Assembly: GCA_022447625.1 (NCBI GenBank)
Contig: JAKVAX010000005.1
Location: 1 to 64,000, forward strand
Origin: Flavobacteriales bacterium
GTDB lineage: Bacteria; Bacteroidota; Bacteroidia; Flavobacteriales_D; Sanyastnellaceae
Direction: 5' to 3'
Length of the DNA stretch: 64,000 nt
Shown here: in pieces, positions 83 through 55,243 of the stretch
How positions within the stretch are numbered: position 1 is the first letter of the stretch
How the letters are laid out: each line of letters starts with the position of its first letter
Translations under genes and position numbers: made by a program
Notes under the pieces: model-generated
What the model was told of the DNA's origin: nothing
Seen by the model: the letters and a program-made list of their open reading frames with translations, nothing else
Databases searched by the model: none

Positions 83-117
83 GTGGAACGGACGCCGGAA
101 TCTGGACGCCGGAAATT
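83..117. repeat. 7-nt periodic intergenic array
   Basis: Five consecutive heptamers can be read here: gtggaac, ggacgcc, ggaatct, ggacgcc, ggaaatt. The array runs into the stop codon (116-118) of the minus-strand surface protein gene. Related heptamers recur at 2484-2523 and 4122-4156, with the same GGA phasing. Function unknown. Confidence 0.7.
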
Positions 118-739
118 ACTGCCTCTTAAAATCCCCATTCCTCCATGCCTGAATAAACTGTGCCCAGGCGATAGGGTTCATCAGAGAGATGGTAGGGAGT
201 TGGCCAGCATAGCTGATTTTATTTGACTCTTGCGTTATGGCATACCGGTAAGCTTCGGCGGCGCTTGGGTCTATTTCTCGCATGCGCTCGTACATCATGG
301 CTGCTTCGAGGTTTTTCTCGGCGAGTTCTTCTTCTGTGCGAGGTATGTCTAGGGCGAGGAAGTCTTGCTTGAAACGTTCCTTGGTTGGCCAAGGGTAGAC
401 GTAAGTGGTGTTCAGCTGGATGGTGTCTCTGCTAAGAAGCTGAACGATGTTGTAACGTAAATTTGTAAGCGTATCAGGGATGATGTACTCTTCAGGCATG
501 TATCCAATTCCGGAGAATTTGATAGTATCTCCTGCGAAAGCTGGGAGGCTGAAGAACCCTACATTGTCTGTGATGCTTCCTCGTTGATCTCTTTCACGGT
601 ACACGGTAGTGAACGGAACTGGATTCAAGGAGTCTCCTGTCACAACCAAACCACTGAACTGGATCACGGCTTTGGTGCTGTCTTGAGCGTTCAATTGAAC
701 GACAGTAATATAAAGGACAAGAAGGATTAAATTCCGCAT
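116..739 (-). CDS. Carboxypeptidase-regulatory-like domain surface protein
   Basis: Exported protein of about 207 residues. The start at 739 (MRNLILLVLY) is preferred over the in-frame ATG at 763 because it gives a clean signal peptide ending near LNAQ. After it comes a beta-sandwich of the CarboxypepD_reg-like type seen at the N-termini of Bacteroidota outer-membrane proteins: FSGLVV, a P-F-T-T-V-Y strand, then an F-x-G-I-G-Y segment. The C-terminal part is helical, with an E-x-x-A-A-M-M-Y-E-R-M-R stretch. There is no TonB-dependent barrel, so this is a free-standing version. Its role is unknown. It lies downstream of prfC on the same strand, about 70 bases away, and its stop codon overlaps a heptamer repeat array. 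Confidence 0.75.
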   Translation of the reverse strand: MRNLILLVLYITVVQLNAQDSTKAVIQFSGLVVTGDSLNPVPFTTVYRERDQRGSITDNVGFFSLPAFAGDTIKFSGIGYMPEEYIIPDTLTNLRYNIVQLLSRDTIQLNTTYVYPWPTKERFKQDFLALDIPRTEEELAEKNLEAAMMYERMREIDPSAAEAYRYAITQESNKISYAGQLPTISLMNPIAWAQFIQAWRNGDFKRQ

Positions 740-808
740 TTTATCAAAGATAGCTAAAAACACTCCTCCTTAAGACGTTAGCCTAGGTGTGTTTTGTTAC
801 AGTTTGAA

Positions 809-970
809 TCAATTCACACCTGCGGTCTTAAATTCACTTGTAAAGTGGAACTGAAGTTCTGGGAAATTCTGACGCTCCATATCGAGTAGGAACTGAGAAG
901 GGGCGAGGTAAACATCGTTTCCGTCCTTGTCTTGAACGATTTCGAGTGCCTTGATACGTTTAAATACCTC
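809..970 (-). pseudogene. prfC: Severed C-terminal segment of release factor 3
   Basis: This stretch lies directly after the in-frame TAA at 971-973 and continues the prfC reading frame for 53 sense codons to a TGA at 809-811. It reads EVFKRIKALEIV, then YLAPSQF, then a terminal FHFTSEF, which looks like the C-terminal end of RF3 domain III. There is no good start codon, so it is probably untranslated unless the TAA is read through. With it, the protein would be about 531 codons, matching the usual RF3 length of about 529 residues. Confidence 0.8.
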
Positions 971-2404
971 TTATTTCTCTTCATTATCTGTAGTGAGCCA
1001 GCATGCCTTGAAGTAGTTCTTCGGACGGAATTCACACTTAGCTCCGTATTCGTGTTCGAGTCGGTATTGAATTACCTCAAACTGAAGTTCACCAACAGTT
1101 CCTACGATTTTACGACTACCAGCTTCTCGGATAAACAACTGCGCCACACCTTCGTCGGTCAGCTGTTTGATTCCTTTATCCAGTTGCTTGCTCTTCATCG
1201 GATCAAGGTTGACCAACTCTTTGAAGATCTCAGGAGAGAAACTAGGAATCCCTTGGAATTGAAGCGCTTCACCTTCGGTTAAGGTGTCTCCAATCTTGAA
1301 GTTACCGGTGTCATATAGTCCAACTACATCACCAGGAAAGGCTTCATCTACCACATTCTTCGAGCGTGCCATGAAGGTCGCCGGATTGGCGAATTTCAGC
1401 TTTTTTTCCAGTCTCACATGGTTGAAGAACTTGTTGCGTTCGAACTTACCTGAGCAAACACGTAAAAAGGCAATGCGATCACGGTGCTTCGGGTCAATAT
1501 TTGCGTGAATCTTGAAGACAAAGCCAGTGAATTTATTTTCGTCTGGAGCAATGTCACGCACGTTGGTAGGACGAGGCTGTGGAACAGGAGCGATGCGGAC
1601 GAAAGTATCGAGCATTTCCTGAACCCCGAAGTTATTTACAGCTGAACCAAAGAATACAGGAGCAAGTTTCCCTTGCAGGTACTCTTCGTCTTCAAACTCT
1701 TCGTACACTCCTTGGATCAAGTCAACATCTTCTCTCAACTGATCGGCATGTTCGCCTACCAATTCATCAAGCTGAGGATCATCAAGGTCTTTAATTTCCA
1801 CCTGCTCATGAACCACTTTTGTCTTGTTCGCTTCAAACAACTTCAATGAACTGTTGTAGAGATCATACACTCCTTTGAAGCTGTACCCTTTACTGATAGG
1901 CCAACTCAATGGACGCACATTGATATTCAACATGCTTTCTAGCTCATCAAGAAGATCGAAGGGGTCACGTCCTTCGAGGTCAACTTTGTTCACGAAGATG
2001 ATCACCGGGGTATCGCGCATGCGGCATACTTCCATCAAACGCTTCGTCTGCTCCTCCACACCTTTCACACTGTCGACCACAAGAATTACCCTGTCTACAG
2101 CAGTCAGAGTTCGGTAGGTATCTTCTGCGAAGTCTTTGTGGCCTGGGGTGTCAAGGAGGTTGATTAAGAGTCCTTTATACTCAAAGCCCATCACCGAGGT
2201 CGCCACCGAGATTCCACGTTGACGCTCGATATCCATGAAGTCAGACGCTGCTGTCTTCGTGATTTTATTATTCTTCACTGCACCCGCTGTCTGGATGGCC
2301 CCTCCAAAAAGAAGGAATTTCTCTGTCAGCGTTGTCTTTCCGGCATCTGGGTGAGAGATGATCGCAAAGGTTTTCCGTTTATTGATCTCTTCGTTCAATG
2401 ACAT
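971..2404 (-). CDS. prfC: Peptide chain release factor 3, truncated by an in-frame TAA
   Basis: Translational GTPase that removes RF1/RF2 from the ribosome after termination. The start is at 2404 ([11 protein letters not shown]); the frame is open a further 72 codons upstream, but a promoter-like TACCTTTG ends five bases before this ATG. GTPase motifs are clear: G1 [12 protein letters not shown], switch region RQRGISV, G3 DTPGHKDF, G4 NKVD. Domains II and III follow (EFRPKNYF near the end). The frame stops at 971-973 (TAA) after 477 residues, about 50 short, while the missing C-terminus is intact downstream in the same frame. Either the gene is a fresh pseudogene, or the stop is recoded, or it is a sequence error. 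RF3 is dispensable in several bacteria, so loss is tolerable. Confidence 0.9.
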
Positions 2405-4175: not shown

Positions 4176-5198
4176 CTAAATCGAAATAACTCCATCATTC
4201 CCAACCATCAACACCAACTCATCCCAACTCAGCTGGCCCATGCTGATGGCTTGTTCCAACTTCGCCATGTCTTGAACTGAAACTCTGATTTGAAAGGATA
4301 ATTCTTCTGATACCTTACTGTTTTTGCAAAGAAGGGCTGGTTCAGGATATGCGAAGGTCAATGAATCGACTACGAAATAGATTGAGCTGAACCCTTTATT
4401 GGACAGTATTTGAAGGGTCTTTTCGCTGATTTCTTGTTCGACTTCGATGTACTGCATGTATGGGCCACGATCACTCAATGCACCGAATTGAAGGTAGCGC
4501 ACAAGTTCATCTGATTCGAAAGGACTTGACTCGTCTTTTAAAAAGATCACTGGGAAATGTGGAATCACTGGAGGCAGCGTTTCATTAACTTCGACACCTT
4601 GCCAATGTGCTTTGCCGCTTACAATAGATTGAACGAGTCGTTCAGCACCGCCAGTGGCAATGACATTGATAAGGCCGGGAGAAGGCTTTGATCGTTGAGC
4701 TCTAACAAATGCATCTGCCTGGGTGAATTTACCTGCGGACACAAGTGTGTTGAAATAGCCTACCTTGAGTTGTTGGTCATTAGGGTATTCAAGGGTATTT
4801 TGCTCGAATAGAGTGAGGGCCGTGTCGAGATGTGATAATCCTGTAGCCTCATCTCCCAGCATTAGAAATGCATTTGCTGCGTTCGCATGAGCTTGTGGAT
4901 CACCGTGATAATAACTCAGTACCTTGTTTGTGGAAGCAATGAAATCTGCAGAGCTCTTTTGCTGAAAGGAAACCCATGATTTCAATTCCCAGGCACCAAT
5001 ATTCTCTGAGTTCAACTCAATAGCGTGATCGAGGATAGCATGCGCAGAATCGAGTAAAGCTTCTTGGTTGCTGCTATTCCGATATTCCTTTATAATATTT
5101 TGAGCTTCATGGAGTAAGGCACTGGATTCTGAATGAGGATCACATGATGAAAAGACCATGATGAACGTGGTTAGAATAAAAAAGTACTTCAGATGCAT
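4176..5198 (-). CDS. TPR-containing lipoprotein, unknown function
   Basis: 340 residues. The N-terminus is a lipoprotein signal (FIMVFSSC with the cysteine near residue 19), so it is probably anchored in the outer or inner membrane. Residues about 30-190 look like tetratricopeptide helices: a W-E-L-K-S-W-V-S-F segment, then A-H-A-N-A-A-N-A-F-L-M-L-G, then L-D-T-A-L-T-L-F. The C-terminal half, with conserved-looking aromatic and charged residues, is not recognised. It stands alone between convergent and same-strand neighbours. Confidence 0.6.
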   Translation of the reverse strand: MHLKYFFILTTFIMVFSSCDPHSESSALLHEAQNIIKEYRNSSNQEALLDSAHAILDHAIELNSENIGAWELKSWVSFQQKSSADFIASTNKVLSYYHGDPQAHANAANAFLMLGDEATGLSHLDTALTLFEQNTLEYPNDQQLKVGYFNTLVSAGKFTQADAFVRAQRSKPSPGLINVIATGGAERLVQSIVSGKAHWQGVEVNETLPPVIPHFPVIFLKDESSPFESDELVRYLQFGALSDRGPYMQYIEVEQEISEKTLQILSNKGFSSIYFVVDSLTFAYPEPALLCKNSKVSEELSFQIRVSVQDMAKLEQAISMGQLSWDELVLMVGNDGVISI

Positions 5199-10813: not shown

Positions 10814-11071
10814 ATGGCAAGAACTGTAGAAGATTTAGTGGTTTGGCAACTCTCTAGAGAGTTAATGAATGATGTGTTTGATCTATGTGATGAGCTACCA
10901 ACGAATTCTAGAAATTTTGGTTTGCAAGATCAAATCAAACGAGCTGTCGTCAGTATCATGACCAACATCTCAGAAGTTGCTTCGCGTTCCTCATTGAAGG
11001 AATACGGGAGATTTCTTGATTACGCTAACGGTTCTTCCGCCGAAGTCAGAACACAACTGATCGTTTTTTAA
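10814..11071 (+). CDS. Four-helix-bundle (S23/IVP-like) protein, truncated
   Basis: 85 residues before an in-frame TAA. The N-terminus VEDLVVWQLSRELM and the segments FGLQDQIKRAVVSIMTNISE and GSSAEVRTQL identify the four-helix-bundle family first described as 23S rRNA intervening-sequence proteins and common in Bacteroidota intergenic regions. The family is usually about 115-125 residues. Here the frame ends right after QLIVF, and the missing last helix continues in the same frame to 11173. The gene is framed by an 18-bp inverted repeat, an arrangement that suggests a small mobile or self-spreading unit. Function of these proteins outside diversity-generating retroelements is not established. 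Confidence 0.85.
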   Translation: MARTVEDLVVWQLSRELMNDVFDLCDELPTNSRNFGLQDQIKRAVVSIMTNISEVASRSSLKEYGRFLDYANGSSAEVRTQLIVF

Positions 11072-11173
11072 GACCGAGGATTCGCAGAAGCCAAGCGTGC
11101 AGAAGATCTAAGAATCAAGTGTCGCAGAATCTCAGCCATGATCGTTAGCTTAAAACACTCCCTGGCGAAATAG
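11072..11173 (+). pseudogene. Severed last helix of the four-helix-bundle gene
   Basis: Directly after the TAA at 11069-11071, the same frame continues for 33 codons (DRGFAEAKRAEDL through HSLAK) to a TAG. This is what the family carries after Q-L-x-V-A-x-D. There is no start codon in a useful place. Confidence 0.75.
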
Positions 11174-54787: not shown

Positions 54788-55243
54788 ATGAACCAATTGT
54801 TTCTTGCACTCATCCTAGCATGTCTTTCTAGCGGTCTGAATGCGCTTGATCAAGTCGAAAAATCGAAATGGAGCTAGGTCAGTATGTTATCTGAAGATGG
54901 CGACAATGGGAGGCTCCAACGTCCTGTTTATCTAAATATGCATTCAGGTGGACTGTACGGGTATTCGAATTTCGAAGTCAATCAGTGTTTTGGTTCCTTC
55001 GAACGCTTATCAGGACACTGTATTCGATTCAGCGATGCGGATTACACCGAAGCATGCTGCCACAGACGACGAAATGAGCTTGATGAGTCTGCTTCCGTAG
55101 ATGTCGCGCTGCACACAATGAACCCAACTCATTTGACCTTTACTGGAGAGGTGATTTACTTTATTGTATTCCACAATTACCTCGAAGATCCCGACACACA
55201 GCTAGGTTTCATGACCATTAAAATGGTTCGAGTTCAAGACTGA
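54788..55243 (+). pseudogene. META-domain (HslJ-like) secreted protein broken by TAG
   Basis: The 152-codon frame starts with ATG (MNQLFLALIL, signal peptide ending LNALDQ) and has one internal stop, TAG at 54875-54877, after residues K-W-S. The rest continues in frame: V-S-M-L-S-E-D-G, then F-G-S-F-E-R-L-S-G, then Y-T-E-A-C-C. This matches a META/HslJ-like domain, where W-x-L-V normally occurs and the stop replaces that Leu. An internal ATG (54884) could restart translation but would lack the signal peptide. Confidence 0.7.

Follow-up and report, generated by a model that had tools for sequence, protein, structure and literature searches.

The window analyzed here, a stretch of 64,000 nucleotides from the start of one contig of a draft Flavobacteriales assembly (G000), carries on its minus strand a prfC gene, encoding the termination factor RF3, with a stop codon inside its reading frame. 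The frame from 2404 to 974 encodes 477 residues with C-terminus ...DNEEK and is closed by an in-frame TAA at 973-971 (codon 478); beyond this codon the peptide EVFKRIK...FHFTSEFKTAGVN follows in frame 0 up to a TGA at 811-809, giving a whole frame of 531 codons plus terminator, with 53 codons between TAA and TGA. An earlier note on this DNA had described a frame that stops after E-E-K at 971-973 and runs on in register to 809. Reading of the frames bears this out except for the exact extent of the tail: the continuation (809-970, codons 479-531) is coding from 970 to 812, and 811-809 is the normal terminator. The stop lies ~1 kb from the contig end, and the gene that follows prfC (116-763, minus strand, ~0.1 kb from the contig end) is open and 96.7% identical to its ortholog in G002 (one contig, same genus), the nearest relative found.

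Residues 1-477 (974-2404) belong to the RF3 equivalog by both NCBIfam models, with 716 bits against NF001964 (cut-off 473) and 641 bits against TIGR00503 (cut-off 467). The Pfam domains GTP_EFTU, EF-G_D2 and RF3_C all occur before the stop, corresponding to the GTPase domain, domain 2 and the beginning of the C-terminal domain; RF3_C is reached only over profile positions 1-94 of 132, and the product ending at the TAA thus does not hold a complete copy of it. When searched alone, the tail aligns weakly with the last ~45 positions of TIGR00503 and NF001964 (E 0.016 and 0.0016, respectively). This match exceeds chance, as the frame with the stop written as X is 98.7% identical to the G002 protein over 531 residues. 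Apart from the in-frame TAA and two private substitutions at conserved columns, the gene resembles other members of the RF3 family: residues 1-477 fall within the family, and the whole frame, when the stop is skipped, closely matches G002 RF3. The genome yielded no second RF3 copy; the match next in rank shows 32% identity and, judged by its length, is EF-G-like.

Comparison of codon 478 in close relatives had been proposed in the earlier note. The window gene differs from that of G002 at 117 of 1596 bases, and seven codons change meaning, including the stop, which in G002 is a leucine codon (TTA). For a wider comparison, 138 fetched loci (29, the best 80 of a longer list, and a further 29) were aligned together with the window, yielding 121 distinct homologs. 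A stop at residue 478 occurs in none of them; two have a terminal stop, at position 526 or 529. Seven columns between 481 and 523 are invariant in 120 or 121 of the 121 homologs. A family search matched RF3 in 93 of 114 genomes with five rows flagged for stops, namely prfC here and four others, all four of which proved terminal on reading. A class search matched RF3 in 288 of 395 genomes, where the matches listed include 11 stop flags, and the ten other than prfC here have no stop before residue 526. On these alignments the TAA is private to this genome copy among those examined, and is best explained as a single-base change.

Two further residues set the window protein apart from all 121 homologs, both of them radical changes at conserved columns. 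At codon 105 (2090-2092), AGG encodes Arg where every homolog has Ser (S105R), and at codon 480 (965-967), only two codons from the TAA, GTA encodes Val where Glu is found in 86 of the 121 homologs and in 40 of the 40 close ones (E480V). The count of private residues is not unusual, as the three of the window protein compare with a median of 2 per homolog and a range of 0-21; residues 158, 199 and 239, which score as private to G002 by the same test, are absent from the window-G002 differences and are therefore common to both. By their nature, the private changes in prfC would be compatible either with loss of constraint or with base errors.

A stop codon inside the gene for a termination factor recalls the programmed +1 frameshift of prfB, and the earlier note had raised recoding or autoregulation of that kind. 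In prfB, the stop is an early UGA that is passed by a change of frame, with a ribosome-binding-like stretch upstream; in prfC, by contrast, it is a late TAA and the tail lies in the same frame, not in the +1 frame. Frameshift bypass of the prfC TAA was rejected, as neither shifted frame yields the tail: the -1 frame is closed by a TAA after four codons, the +1 peptide does not look RF3-like by eye, and the tail could therefore be reached by readthrough only. The genome also has its own RF1 and RF2 genes with no stop within the matched domain, and prfB carries the pattern AGGGGG-TAT-CTT-TGA-C (G000:C12:323558, locus L190), which we take to be a typical-looking RF2 +1 frameshift site. Control of prfB would therefore be separate from, and different in kind to, the prfC stop.

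Programmed or regulated readthrough would form a loop in which low RF3 weakens termination, the TAA is then passed, and full-length RF3 is restored, making it a lineage-specific counterpart of prfB control that works by readthrough instead of frameshifting. The frame that stays open beyond the stop to a normal terminator agrees with such a loop, as do the greater stop-codon readthrough in E. coli without RF3 and the rise of prfB frameshifting without prfC (~47% versus 28%), both as reported in PMC5373646. Against it, the stop is not conserved together with the tail in any of the 121 homologs, and codon 480, two after the stop, departs from the residue kept in all 40 close ones. The RNA after the stop is ordinary in folding energy (z -1.15) and has no Rfam match; a 6-base pairing (GAGGTA/TACCTC) predicted there is absent in G002, but 31 of the 121 homologs are at least as stable. 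Of the 55 window genes whose end coincides with that of the G002 ortholog, 23 use TAA as terminator; a genetic code change for this ordinary terminator is accordingly not supported. Nor is a suppressor tRNA, as no stop anticodon occurs among the 33 tRNAs found (150 of 238 candidates scored), although this list is incomplete, because none of the 33 reported for the whole genome has an Asp anticodon; the lack of tRNA-Asp probably reflects incompleteness of the draft or of the scan. Promoter- and terminator-like sites in positions 1-2800 exceed shuffled sequences by at most about one standard deviation. No natural in-frame stop in prfC was met in the literature searched, which does not mean that none is in print.

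Taken together, these observations make readthrough extremely unlikely, and the non-recoding readings jointly almost certain. The recoding idea of the earlier note is thus not supported, whereas its judgement that a simple nonsense mutation is more likely than recoding stands; nonsense and the read-level error that it had set against its own proposal are the two readings now favored. More generally, an open frame past a stop can resemble recoding where relatives and other breaks in the same assembly would give a plainer account.

What truncation at codon 478 would cost can be judged from an AlphaFold2 model of G002 RF3 (26 sequences, mean pLDDT 77, with blocks 471-520 at 87-91). Residue 478 is placed within helix 475-484, with three strands and a further helix downstream. 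A 477-residue RF3 would be 54 residues short at its end, missing about a third of the C-terminal domain, and would probably be inactive. A shortened protein that still functions is very improbable: the GTPase domain and domain 2 are indeed encoded before the stop, but the lost part completes RF3_C, only 94 of whose 132 positions are matched without it, and is conserved nearly to its end, as the seven invariant columns between 481 and 523 attest.

If the stop were instead a real and recent nonsense mutation, translation would end at residue 477, RF3 would probably be inactive, and the strain would live without it, there being no second copy found in the genome to take its place. Such a break would interrupt the modeled helix and remove the three strands and the helix beyond, and S105R, at the column where all 121 homologs have Ser, would together with E480V fit a loss of constraint. 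A living strain without RF3 is plausible, as PMC1780047 describes E. coli with prfC inactivated as viable with disturbed growth, and a 2007 survey given there found the gene lacking in 72 of 191 bacterial genomes. The ratio of nonsynonymous to synonymous differences from G002, 3:11 in the tail (codons 479-528) and 6:95 in the body, deviates in the direction expected under nonsense but is not significant (Fisher p 0.078) and is not relied on. Set against this reading are the retention of RF3 in 47 of the 50 family genomes with >=90% completeness and <=5% contamination, and a frameshift in alaS of the same assembly that is hard to believe (see below). We put real nonsense at a little under an even chance; if the mutation is real, it would be a natural loss of RF3 in a family where nearly all good genomes keep the gene.

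The reliability of the assembly was evaluated with a 160-kb sample from another contig (G000:C23:160001-320000), compared with G002. In this sample a one-base frameshift splits alaS (G000:C23:245584-248183, loci L204-L205), and identity is ~97% to either side of the break; the G002 counterpart, identified as alaS by TIGR00344, is intact, and the G000 genome yielded no further alaS. The gene is in practice essential, and a viable cell with such a break is difficult to envisage. A helicase of the PcrA/UvrD type in the same sample is also frameshifted by one base. As alaS is broken, is the sole copy found and is practically essential, the assembly probably contains false breaks.

A second line of comparison counted changes on the branches leading to G000 and G002, with G001 (a two-contig genome) as outgroup. 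Over 99 genes there are 216 amino-acid changes on the G000 branch versus 136 on the G002 branch, and 1733 versus 1743 third-position changes; this set took in alaS and other broken genes, which inflates the G000 count. Strict filtering, which dropped genes with <90% coverage in G000 or <70% in G001 as well as codons with poorly matching neighbors, left 87 genes, with 106 amino-acid changes versus 63 and 1036 third-position changes versus 998. The excess of amino-acid changes on the G000 branch would fit scattered errors, but would also fit relaxed selection. Transversions on the two branches (330 of 1200 for G000 versus 271 of 1114, p 0.088) are not relied on.

The reading to which we lean slightly, over real nonsense, is a consensus base error, in which a wrong base in the draft consensus turns codon 478 into TAA; it has about an even chance of being correct. 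The lean arises because the alaS and helicase breaks suggest false breaks in the same assembly, and the prfC stop may have the same origin. Also in its favor are the leucine codon TTA in G002, the absence of the stop from all 121 homologs, the branch excess, the radical changes in prfC and the nearness of the contig end. Under a consensus error, the organism would probably have an ordinary full-length RF3. Several observations count against it, however. In prfC the changes are base substitutions, unlike the one-base indels of alaS and the helicase; the branch excess can be explained by relaxed selection as well; and the number of private residues is ordinary. Seven further tRNA synthetases that pass the Pfam cut-offs, presumably of the Ile, Val, Leu, Met, Asp, Lys and Asn types, have open frames in G000; the open length equals that of G002 in six and is 576 versus 601 in the seventh, and errors are therefore not everywhere. 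In addition, the alaS of G001 is split as well, at another place, and G002 itself has an internal stop. The prfC break has in common with the nonsense pseudogenes and frameshifted genes of draft assemblies a single-base origin, an open frame beyond it, its absence from the relatives examined and the presence of other breaks in the same assembly (alaS and the PcrA/UvrD-like helicase), and no tested feature sets it apart from these.

The remaining stop flags in the two-way comparison of G000 and G002 were sorted by eye, with no fixed rule. Stops close to either terminus and stops in ORFs overlapping other genes were set aside in G000, as were two ORFs with stops before the likely true start. Three cases were kept as possible breaks: a 213-residue protein in G000:C23 with an internal TAG, and window positions 10814-11170 and 54788-55243. 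The first of these window positions is a gene of the four-helix-bundle family TIGR02436 with an internal TAA; the family has nine matches in G000, seven in G002 and three in G001, and two other G000 copies are stop-flagged. The second encodes a small protein that shares 70% identity with an ORF of G002, and a TAG falls at residue 30 in the numbering of the latter; this reflects either a start-site difference or a break. The reverse situation is found at window positions 4176-5198, which are open, whereas a TAG interrupts the G002 ortholog at residue 132; single stops therefore occur in the one-contig relative too. Among the remaining cases, a 99-residue ORF of G002 is interrupted by a stop and ORFs of 102 and 444 residues are split there, and in G000 a 105-residue ORF is split.
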